Assembly: GCA_029856045.1 (NCBI GenBank) | Contig: JAHQWG010000016.1 | Coordinates: forward strand, 1 to 64,000 | Length of the DNA: 64,000 nucleotides | Direction: 5' to 3' | Source of the DNA: Promethearchaeia archaeon | Lineage (GTDB): Archaea; Asgardarchaeota; Lokiarchaeia; Sigyniarchaeales; SOKP01 | Shown: positions 35,728 to 38,834 of the stretch, one piece after another | Layout of the letters: each line of letters begins with the position of its first letter | Numbering within the stretch: position 1 is the stretch's first letter | Position numbers and translations under genes: made by a program | Notes under the pieces: generated by a model | The model's database searches: none | What the model was told of the DNA's origin: nothing | Seen by the model: only the letters and a program-made list of their open reading frames with translations

Positions 35728-38508
35728 TTATTCTAAAATAAGAACTGGTTTGCCAGGTAGTGCTTGTCCAGCTTTTTTATGTTCAATTTGATCTTCTAAA
35801 TGTATTTCAATGTTACACCCAAAATTATCTTGAAATGTTGGTTTTATTTCATTAAAAAAGTCCATTTCACCTTTTGATGTTAAGACTATTTTTGAATATA
35901 TCCCAAGATTTTGTAAAATATTATTAATAATTTGATTTATTTTTTTCCCAAATTTTTTTAATTCAGCGTCTTGCATAATTATTTTCATAATTTCTCCTTG
36001 ATCTTTAGATTTTTCAATCAATGGTATTAATTTTGAAAATAATTTGTATTTCCATTCGGTTGCAATTACAATTTTAATCAAAGAAATTTTTTGACCCTTT
36101 AAAATTTGTATTATATTTTTTATATCATCTATTGTGTTGTTCATTAAATTCCATTTAAAATCGTTTTCATCTGTTAATAGATTTTTGTTATGGGATGGCC
36201 AAGGACTTTTACTTAAGAAATCTTTATGACCAAGCAGTTCCCATAATTCTTCTGTTATGTGTGGTATAAATGGATGTAAGAGCAGAAGCAATTTTTCTTG
36301 ACATTCTTTATAGAGATGTTCAATAACACCTTTTTTCTTATATTCTTTCAAATTTGGAATGAATTGAACAATTTCATTTATCGTATCACGTAATGCGAGA
36401 TTATTCATGTGCTCTGTAGCTATTTTTATGAGTTTGTTTAATTTATATTCTATAAAAGTATCATTTATATTCCTTTGGTTTCTAATTTTTTCGACAGACT
36501 CTGTAAAAAGTGTCCATAAACCAGAGACAAATTTATATGCAAATCCAACTCCTTGATCAGACCATTCCAATCCTTTCTCTGGACTTGCTCCGAATAATAT
36601 GAAAAATCTAGTTGCATCTGCTCCATATTCATTCATAATTCCAATTGGATCAACGGTATTTCCTAGAGATTTGCTCATCTTAACACTTTTTAGAATATAT
36701 TCAGTTCCACATCGTTTACAAGTATCATCATGCATTTCTGCTTTCATCGCAAAGGTATTACATTTTGGACAATATGGATGTGCTTTATTAATCATACCAT
36801 GTGTTAATAATCGTTGAAAGGGTTCATCATGTGAATGTAACCCAAGATCACGTGCTACTTTTGTAAAAAATCTTGCATAAAGAAGATGCATAATTGCATG
36901 TTCGATTCCGCCAATGTATTGATCGACATTTCCCCAATAATCAACAATATCCTTTCTATATGGTAAATCATTTGTATGAGGATCACAGAATCTAAAGAAA
37001 TACCAAGAACTATCAACAAAAGTATCCATTGTATCAGTCTCACGCCTCCCTGGTTTACCACATTTTGGACATTGGCAATTAATGAAAGATTCAGAAGTTA
37101 TTAAAGGATTTCCTTTTCCAGTAAATTTAACATCTTTTGGTAATTCTAATGGCAAATTCTCATAAGGAACAGGCACAACTCCGCAATCATCGCAATATAT
37201 TATTGGTATTGGGCATCCCCAATATCTTTGACGGGAAATTAGCCAATCCCTTAACTTATAATTAACGGTTGCTTTACCCATCCCTATTTTTTCTAACTTT
37301 TTTGTTATCGAATTAATCGCGGTTCGATTATCCATCCCATCAAATTCTTCCGAATTTACTAGGATGCCATCTGCCACATAAGCTCTTGTCATTTTATCCG
37401 CATTTAATTCATAATCAGGTGGTTGAATAACAACTTTAATCGCGATATTATATTCTTTTGCAAATTCAAAATCACGTTGGTCGTGAGCAGGAACAGCCAT
37501 GACTGCACCTGCCCCGTATTCATAAATGACAAAATTTCCACTATAAATAGGAACTTTTTCTTTTGTCACTGGATTAATCGCATATTTGCCAATAAAAATC
37601 CCTTTTTTATCAACCTCAATATCCGTCCTTTCAAATTTATTCTGCGTCATAACATCAGTGTAAAAAATTTCGAAATCTTTTTCATATTCAGTTCCTTTAA
37701 CCCATTCGCGAACCCAAGGATGTTCTGGAGCAAAAACCATAAAAGTGACTCCATAAAGTGTATCAGCTCTAGTTGTAAATATGTCAATGGTTCTGTCTTC
37801 TCCCACAACTGGGAATTTAATTATCGACCCCTCCGACCTCCCGATCCAATTTCTTTGCATAACTTTAACTTTGTCAGGCCAATCAACATTATTTAAGCCA
37901 TTTAACAATTCTTCAGCATAAGATCTTATTTTTAAAAACCATTGGGTCAAAAATTTTTGTTCTACTTCTGAATTGCAACGCCAACAGAGACCACCTTGAA
38001 CTTGCTCGTTAGCCAACACTGTTACACATTGAGGGCACCAATTAATATAACTATCTTCTCGATAAGCTAGATCTTTTTCAAACATTTTCAGAAAAAACCA
38101 CTGATCCCATTTAAAATAATTTGGATCATGGCTATGAATTTCACGAGTCCAATCATAAGATAATCCTATCCTTTTTTGTTGATTTCTCATGATATCGATA
38201 TTTAAATTGGTCCATTCCTCTGGATTCACTCCCTCGTCAATTGCGGCGTTTTCTGCGGGTAATCCAAAAGAATCATATCCCATAGGATAAAGTATATGGA
38301 ATCCGCACATTCGTTTGTATCTAGTAAATGCATCGCCAACAGTATAATTACGTAGATGGCCTATGTGAAGTTTTCCAGAGGGATAAGGGTACATTTCGAG
38401 TATATAATACTTTTTCTTTTTTGGATCTTTTTGTATTTCGAAGATTTTTGCTTCTTCCCATTTCTTTTGCCATTTCTCTTCTATTTTTTGGGGGTTATAA
38501 TCATTCAT
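35728..38508 (-). CDS. leuS: Leucyl-tRNA synthetase, bacterial type
   Basis: The 926-residue class I synthetase has HIGH (residues 48-51, KLHIGHLRNYTVGD), KMSKS (610-614) and a CP1 editing domain after the zinc-binding WCPQCVTVLANEQV. The pattern PYPSGKLHIGHLRNYTVGD, then YDSFGLPAENAAI, QRNWIGRSEG and AVMAVPAHDQRD, belongs to bacterial LeuRS, not the archaeal/eukaryotic type. Its Cys-rich insertion near 445-460 (QCPKC) and at 560-585 (CPKCN, CKRCG) can bind zinc. The 326-base region upstream holds a leader with alternative hairpins and a Leu-rich small frame (38509-38834). The start is the ATG at 38508 after AAAAGGAAAT. Confidence 0.96.
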   Translation of the reverse strand: MNDYNPQKIEEKWQKKWEEAKIFEIQKDPKKKKYYILEMYPYPSGKLHIGHLRNYTVGDAFTRYKRMCGFHILYPMGYDSFGLPAENAAIDEGVNPEEWTNLNIDIMRNQQKRIGLSYDWTREIHSHDPNYFKWDQWFFLKMFEKDLAYREDSYINWCPQCVTVLANEQVQGGLCWRCNSEVEQKFLTQWFLKIRSYAEELLNGLNNVDWPDKVKVMQRNWIGRSEGSIIKFPVVGEDRTIDIFTTRADTLYGVTFMVFAPEHPWVREWVKGTEYEKDFEIFYTDVMTQNKFERTDIEVDKKGIFIGKYAINPVTKEKVPIYSGNFVIYEYGAGAVMAVPAHDQRDFEFAKEYNIAIKVVIQPPDYELNADKMTRAYVADGILVNSEEFDGMDNRTAINSITKKLEKIGMGKATVNYKLRDWLISRQRYWGCPIPIIYCDDCGVVPVPYENLPLELPKDVKFTGKGNPLITSESFINCQCPKCGKPGRRETDTMDTFVDSSWYFFRFCDPHTNDLPYRKDIVDYWGNVDQYIGGIEHAIMHLLYARFFTKVARDLGLHSHDEPFQRLLTHGMINKAHPYCPKCNTFAMKAEMHDDTCKRCGTEYILKSVKMSKSLGNTVDPIGIMNEYGADATRFFILFGASPEKGLEWSDQGVGFAYKFVSGLWTLFTESVEKIRNQRNINDTFIEYKLNKLIKIATEHMNNLALRDTINEIVQFIPNLKEYKKKGVIEHLYKECQEKLLLLLHPFIPHITEELWELLGHKDFLSKSPWPSHNKNLLTDENDFKWNLMNNTIDDIKNIIQILKGQKISLIKIVIATEWKYKLFSKLIPLIEKSKDQGEIMKIIMQDAELKKFGKKINQIINNILQNLGIYSKIVLTSKGEMDFFNEIKPTFQDNFGCNIEIHLEDQIEHKKAGQALPGKPVLILE

Positions 38509-38698
38509 ATTTCCTTTTATTCCATTCCATTGTTTTTATTAAAATTATCCACATTTTTTCAATATTATGAATTCTTTTTTTCAATGCTTCTTCGAACCTT
38601 TGAGCTTTAATTCTAAAAATATTTTCTGGATATCAAGAGAGAACAAATCCATAAAAGTTATTAAAAGAAAAAAAGACTCAGGTTCATTCTCTCTTGAA

Positions 38699-38779
38699 TT
38701 AAAGTAATAACAATAATACCACTACTAAGAGTAGTACAAATAACAATATGTTTTGTACTTTTTTCATCAAGAGAGACAT
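38699..38779 (-). CDS. Candidate 26-residue Leu-rich leader peptide
   Basis: The frame runs ATG (38779) to TAA (38701-38699) and encodes 26 residues, 12 of them Leu (five at the end), with KK at 6-7 and a hydrophobic run from residue 11 to 26. It is placed upstream of the leuS gene on the same strand. A leaderless start is suggested by the TATA element. It could be a leader peptide sensing leucyl-tRNA supply, a small membrane protein, or not translated at all; an AT-rich frame this short can occur by chance. The adjacent alternative-pairing segments favour the leader reading. Confidence 0.4.
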   Translation of the reverse strand: MSLLMKKVQNILLFVLLLVVVLLLLL

Positions 38780-38802
38780 AATGATAGATATTATAATTAC
38801 TA

Positions 38803-38811
38803 CTTTTAAAG
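38803..38811 (-). promoter_or_regulatory. TATA-like element before leuS leader
   Basis: On the minus strand CTTTAAAAG is preceded by AATAAT and lies about 28 bases upstream of the ATG at 38779. In archaea that spacing puts the transcription start at or just before this ATG, as in a leaderless mRNA. No ribosome-binding run precedes the ATG, which fits leaderless initiation. Confidence 0.4.
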
Positions 38812-38834
38812 ATTATTATAAGGTCTATAGAAAT

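Follow-up and report, generated by a model that had tools for sequence, protein, structure and literature searches.

A leader upstream of leuS, conserved across a Lokiarchaeal family, is a likely ribosome-mediated amino-acid attenuator

Introduction

Can a Lokiarchaeal leucyl-tRNA synthetase gene be controlled by a ribosome that translates a short leucine-rich frame ahead of it? The question is raised by the region upstream of leuS in a stretch of 64,000 nucleotides of Lokiarchaeota DNA (G000:C27), called the window below, for which the original prediction had proposed a leucine attenuator. The bacterial ribosome-mediated attenuators (trp, his, phe, leu, ilv) resemble this region in placing a short frame rich in the cognate residue, directly followed by alternative hairpins, ahead of a gene concerned with that amino acid. 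The Corynebacterium ilvBNC leader (PMC10272879, PMC11857589) is also alike in its branched-chain amino-acid leader frame and its competing hairpins, but it is bacterial and belongs to a biosynthetic operon. According to a 2021 paper, no attenuation or antitermination is known in archaea, and we found no archaeal leader-peptide attenuator in the open-licence literature that was searched. The gap named in that paper would be closed if Asgard archaea do have a conserved leader-peptide switch. If confirmed, such a switch would be the first archaeal case of ribosome-mediated attenuation, which is familiar from bacteria, and would indicate that transcription and translation are functionally coupled in the archaeal lineage nearest to eukaryotes, with the ribosome travelling just after RNA polymerase.

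In this study, sequence comparison led us to conclude that the region is probably a cis-acting ribosome-mediated amino-acid attenuator, most plausibly one acting on termination at a U-tract, although expression, the direction of the response and translation are inferred.

Architecture of the leuS leader

The presumed regulated gene, leuS (35728..38508, minus strand), encodes a bacterial-type leucyl-tRNA synthetase with a Pfam leucyl editing domain. All of the leader elements upstream of it are read on the same minus strand. A TATA-box region (CTTTAAAAG, 38803..38811) is followed about 28 nt behind the box by the leader frame MSLLMKKVQNILLFVLLLVVVLLLLL (38699..38779), which has 26 codons, 12 of them for leucine. 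Because TTTAAA starts 31 nt before the leader ATG, the transcript is likely to be leaderless or nearly so, an inference from TATA spacing made without transcription-start data. Of 30 leaders, 19 have the motif TTTA(T/A)A beginning 29-34 nt ahead of their ATG, and a TATTTTAATA-like box can be recognized by eye in most of the others.

Segment 1 (UCUCUCUUGA, 38767..38776) lies inside the frame and can pair with segment 2 (38680..38697), which starts right after the leader stop codon and pairs with segment 3 (GGAUUUGUUCUCUCUUGA, 38633..38650). Between segments 2 and 3 lies a T-rich run (38663..38676), referred to here as the U-tract, which is a candidate archaeal termination signal. Segment 2b (GAACCUGAGUCUUU, 38672..38685), which takes in the U-rich part together with the bases before it, pairs with segment 4 (GAAUUAAAGCUCAAAGGUUC, 38594..38613) to make a late hairpin, and the leuS start follows about 90 nt behind segment 4. 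The TATA-like element, the frame with its 12 leucines, segments 1 to 3 and the T-rich run between segments 2 and 3 had all been part of the original prediction, and each was found in its place; helix 2b:4 had been missed at that first reading.

Selection on the leader frame

The leader frame was compared with all frames of 20-32 codons that start with ATG in 464 kb of its contig, and of these 1551 it has the highest share of leucine. Three further species of the window's genus carry it as MSLLMNKVQNALLFVLLLVVVLLLVL, except that one ends instead in VVVLSLVL. Differences among the sibling species are mostly synonymous, and some of them, such as CTA to TTA or TTA to CTC, exchange one leucine codon for another; pN/pS over the four species is 0.19 in the leader frame versus 0.68 and 1.79 in the two other frames. 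When the same substitutions were placed at random, the residue changes proved to be few for the number of substitutions (p about 0.01 in each comparison); the leucine count alone was not significant in this simulation (p 0.18-0.31, four species). Coding selection on the frame is shown by these comparisons, whereas translation itself is inferred, as there are no ribosome-occupancy data.

Leucine makes up 58% of the last 12 codons of the leuS leaders, reaching 97% at codon -3 and 67-97% over codons -1 to -4. A short leucine-rich frame conserved as coding sequence, one criterion for an attenuator, is thus present, with leuS leaders in five genera (g1, the genus of the window, g2, g3, g5 and g8). 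In almost every leader that was read, the stop codon borders segment 2.

Two competing helices

In an alignment of 31 leuS leaders that was not fitted to structure, 92.2% of the cells of helix 2:3 are paired and 6 of its 12 pairs show two-sided change. It is these two-sided changes that weigh most, because relatedness inflates such pairing tests. Shuffled controls equalled the helix in 0 of 500 cases on three of five measures and in 0-2 of 500 across all measures, and versions slid out of register reached at most 50.5% pairing. With 72 sequences aligned to a covariance model, two-sided change was seen in 9 of 12 pairs (60 cells), in an alignment that leans towards the structure. Support for helix 2b:4 is weaker: 75.5% of cells are paired and 8 of 14 pairs show compensatory change, but on two of the five measures it does no better than 32/500 and 101/500 against shuffles, slid versions come close on several measures, and bulges shift the register in some sequences. 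An alignment-free duplex test gave lower energies within than between sequences for both helices (-17.3 versus -14.3 kcal/mol for 2:3 and -14.5 versus -10.6 kcal/mol for 2b:4; 0 of 2000 in each case), with one segment-3 position misplaced (L194). Covariation is therefore strong for 2:3 and moderate for 2b:4, and the comparison shows mutually exclusive hairpins beside the frame, as an attenuator requires; that they exclude each other in the cell is inferred.

In the window, the stretch that forms 2:3 folds at -20.4 kcal/mol (z -4.0), with none of 200 shuffles as good, whereas the late hairpin has a z of only -1.5. Folding by increasing length indicates that the 2:3 hairpin forms once the RNA includes segment 3. 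When the RNA also includes segment 4, the long hairpin 2b:4, which excludes 2:3, is the more stable of the two in 40 of 41 leaders. The U-tract, T-rich in all leaders compared, lies in the loop of 2:3 and is largely paired in 2b:4, where segment 3 becomes the loop. A pseudoknot in which both helices coexist was considered and judged sterically unlikely, as segments 2 and 2b are separated by 0-1 nt and each helix has about 12 bp. Equilibrium folding with a modelled ribosome footprint gave no clear switch by codon position, so the attenuator model rests on the order of folding.

The original prediction had allowed only the pairings 1:2 and 2:3, and this held in part. Helix 2:3 is conserved, but 1:2 occurs only in genus g1 and in the small-protein leaders of one g8 lineage, and leuS leaders from other genera lack it; it is 2b:4 that is conserved as the competitor of 2:3. 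Loss of the frame or of the pairing in relatives would have counted against the attenuator, but the relatives keep both the leucine codons and the 2:3 pairing, and neither check refuted it.

Distribution on leuS genes

A DNA search recovered a fourth sequence in the window's genus (G002) and, in four g8 genomes, a closely similar leader that precedes a small protein of about 52 aa, not leuS. We also read 20 regions upstream of archaeal-type leuS genes of the same family, from two to three other genera including g2 and g8, chosen solely for preceding leuS; 3 of the 20 had given weak DNA matches. All 20 have a TATA-like box and a 27-31-codon frame with a terminal leucine cluster (e.g., MISNKTALKMNLREKVSLVDLLAVLLLS), then a stop codon, segment 2 (GCGAAACAAATCC), a U-rich stretch, segment 3 (GGATTTGTTCGC) and segment 4. 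The layout of the element overall is a TATA box, an apparently leaderless leucine-rich frame of 24-31 codons, a stop codon, segment 2, the U-tract, and segments 3 and 4.

The covariance model built from these leaders, R1, has matches in 55 of the 65 genomes of the family, and one lies upstream of every archaeal-type leuS start of the family that could be matched (31 of 31). Twenty of these 31 leaders are in the model; the 11 independent ones (G006, G032, G058, G059, G064, G070, G077, G080, G081, G084 and G085) match with E-values from 1.5e-18 to 0.005. The window, itself among the model-building sequences, matches at E 5.4e-12 and meets the criteria of this new Lokiarchaeal leader family, namely a TATA box, a frame ending at segment 2, a U-tract, and segments 3 and 4. 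What had been proposed as a candidate leucine attenuator at one locus is supported, and it is a family-wide system rather than a one-gene oddity.

Bacterial-type leuS genes carry the leader only in G000, G001, G002, G004 and G016. It is absent from most bacterial-type leuS genes of the family, including that of G003, which belongs to the same genus as the window; at some additional bacterial-type regions, this absence rests on the whole-genome covariance-model search. In G000, G001 and G004, a partial set of matches shows no archaeal-type leuS, so that the gene carrying the leader there appears to be the resident leuS.

In many genomes of the family an archaeal-type LeuS occurs beside a bacterial-type one, and where both are present the leader was found on the archaeal one. 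Some bacterial-type leuS copies (L017, L019, L023 and L025) contain in-frame stops (TAA, TGA, TAG) and are perhaps decaying second copies or assembly errors.

The model search found no significant further copy in the window's own genome. Beyond the family, there was no convincing match in 14 other genomes of the order, where weak matches, once read, were not leaders, and four other leuS upstream regions outside the family lack the leader. Several candidates were set aside: a leucine-rich frame in G008/G026 (MILIPLLL) and one in G017 were too weak to count as leaders, and the low-scoring model matches L266, L268, L269, L271, L274-L276 and L278-L281 were attributed to chance, being without a convincing frame.

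Proposed mechanism

The covarying helix 2:3, the tight placement of the stop codon and the family-wide association with leuS are shown. Taken together, the frame and its competing hairpins, conserved across one archaeal family, are strong comparative evidence that an amino-acid shortage is sensed via the translating ribosome. Translation, the sensing of leucyl-tRNA, the exclusivity of the hairpins in the cell and termination at the U-tract are all inferred, without start-site, RNA 3'-end, ribosome-occupancy or expression data. The claim of the original prediction that a shortage of leucyl-tRNA changes the pairing and the expression of leuS thus remains an inference.

In the proposed mechanism, a ribosome would follow RNA polymerase through the leader frame and, when leucyl-tRNA is scarce, would dwell on leucine codons, so that its position relative to segment 2 selects the hairpin. 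The choice of hairpin would leave the U-tract exposed, or not, to the archaeal terminator aCPSF1/FttA and would thereby set the amount of leuS transcription. Exposure of the U-tract is a natural switch point because Lokiarchaeal aCPSF1 is reported to act with U-tracts (PMC8716108). In the direction that we prefer, a ribosome stalled on the last leucine codons would cover segment 2 and block 2:3; 2b:4 would then hide the U-tract and leuS would stay on. This choice of 2b:4 as the on-state is favoured by the leucine frequencies at codons -1 to -4, since a ribosome stalled there would cover the start of segment 2. The opposite direction is possible: leuS would then be on when 2:3 forms, in the manner of the trp operon. 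That direction fits better the mixed-residue leaders described below, as ribosomes would stall far upstream of segment 2 on them and let 2:3 form. One point against an attenuator is that the U-tract precedes segments 3 and 4; the pairing must therefore act after the U-tract has been synthesized, unlike in a bacterial intrinsic terminator.

In contrast to the bacterial attenuators, the Lokiarchaeal element has an archaeal TATA promoter, an apparently leaderless frame and a U-tract in the loop of the early hairpin. No terminator hairpin with a U-run was found at the element, and that criterion of a bacterial attenuator is not met. We therefore regard it as a variant, which would work like a bacterial attenuator but lacks this feature. 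Reports on promoter-proximal termination by archaeal aCPSF1 (PMC8448881) and on U-tract termination (PMC8716108) describe plausible machinery for premature termination at or near U-tracts, although we found no leader peptide or RNA switch in the relevant passages. The leader sequences presented here offer concrete material for testing both coupling and aCPSF1 termination.

Alternative explanations

The rival that survives best, though we consider it unlikely, is translational control without any premature termination, in which the leader ribosome and the hairpins would make the leuS start more or less accessible or would permit re-initiation. The same frame and hairpins would suit such control equally well, and small overlapping frames bridge the gap to leuS (window minus strand, 38652-38581 and 38584-38501). 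However, none of the conserved helices extends as far as the leuS start, around which the predicted fold is mostly unpaired, and the U-tract is kept in all leaders. The bridging frames, which overlap each other and the leuS start, show mostly residue-changing substitutions in relatives, with the ATG of the first lost once, and they are probably not coding.

The original prediction had also raised a structured RNA acting without translation. Such an RNA would bind a ligand, tRNA or LeuRS (a riboswitch, a T-box-like element or an autoregulatory operator), leaving translation of the frame irrelevant. It is true that distant leaders resemble each other more in the RNA part than in the peptide. Nevertheless, this rival is very unlikely: substitutions in the frame's own register show purifying selection, the leader residues differ by regulated gene, and the stop codon keeps to the segment 2 edge. 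T-box elements of aminoacyl-tRNA synthetase genes in Firmicutes are alike in regulating such genes by tRNA charging, but they sense tRNA directly without translation, unlike the proposed switch. The T-box family (RF00230) gave no match at the gathering score in the window or in 20 related loci, nor did it match around the leader when E-values up to 10 were allowed; no other Rfam family, Leu_leader and other leader-peptide families included, matched the window or these loci.

It is equally improbable that the frame encodes a small hydrophobic membrane peptide with its own function, co-transcribed with leuS by chance. MSLLMKKVQNILLFVLLLVVVLLLLL does have the look of a membrane helix, but leaders such as MISNKTALKMNLREKVSLVDLLAVLLLS and MNFSRHNTSTWAGCKRAIIPTVTVL are not hydrophobic throughout and yet have the same RNA behind them, and the element stands upstream of all 31 archaeal leuS genes. 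Finally, the same attenuator could be driven by nascent-peptide arrest, as in TnaC, instead of charged-tRNA starvation, an idea favoured by leaders not rich in one residue (FSHHNTTxTWxGYKRAFIPVVVL) but very doubtful because the leuS leaders share the leucine run while the rest of the peptide varies.

The same RNA before other genes

The same RNA, again behind a frame that stops at segment 2, stands upstream of an FrhB/FdhB-like Fe-S protein of 474-477 aa (identified with Pfam), where the leaders are isoleucine-rich, such as MISSNTAKRILVRVLISLSIIILAVLII (loci L244-L248, L254 and L322). It also precedes small proteins of 45-70 aa with valine- and leucine-rich leaders such as MISNTTTGNTSEEFLSELDLGVVVVVVL. 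Another group of small proteins has leaders such as MNFSRHNTSTWAGCKRAIIPTVTVL, each with about 15 different residues; in the part of this mixed-residue group that belongs to genus g8, the frame extends 11-13 nt into segment 2. None of the small proteins tested had a Pfam match, which leaves leuS as the only gene for which the leader residue can be argued to fit the function. Possibly, the small proteins behind the valine- and leucine-rich leaders are starvation-response proteins, and the mixed-residue leaders may be candidates for a general amino-acid sensor controlling small proteins.

A bolder reading, which we consider as likely to fail as to hold, is that Lokiarchaeota have a general, modular attenuation in which one RNA switch is combined with interchangeable leader peptides. 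In this joint reading, leucine would serve leuS, isoleucine-rich leaders the FrhB-like Fe-S protein and valine- and leucine-rich leaders the small proteins, leaders with about 15 residues would act as a general starvation sensor, and the position of the ribosome would govern aCPSF1-dependent termination at the U-tract.

Some features of the small-protein loci may be recorded separately. The small proteins behind valine- and leucine-rich leaders (L165-L168 and L328-L329; L243, L249, L250 and L319-L321) often stand in tandem and contain a motif P(G/A)E(I/L), as in DYTRFFEPAEINNIS and VKPGEIEIEDEIRLGYLWARYG. The mixed-residue leaders, M(N/S)FS(R/H)HNTxxTWxGYKRAFIPVVVL, precede small proteins with the motif DYYKDW (L169, L251-L253, L256, L258, L261, L264, L270, L272 and L297-L305). 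In L253 (407-513 and 1047-1148), L258, L297 and L298 the element occurs twice in tandem, at a spacing of about 630 nt; the two copies have different kinds of leader, and each is followed by a separate small protein.
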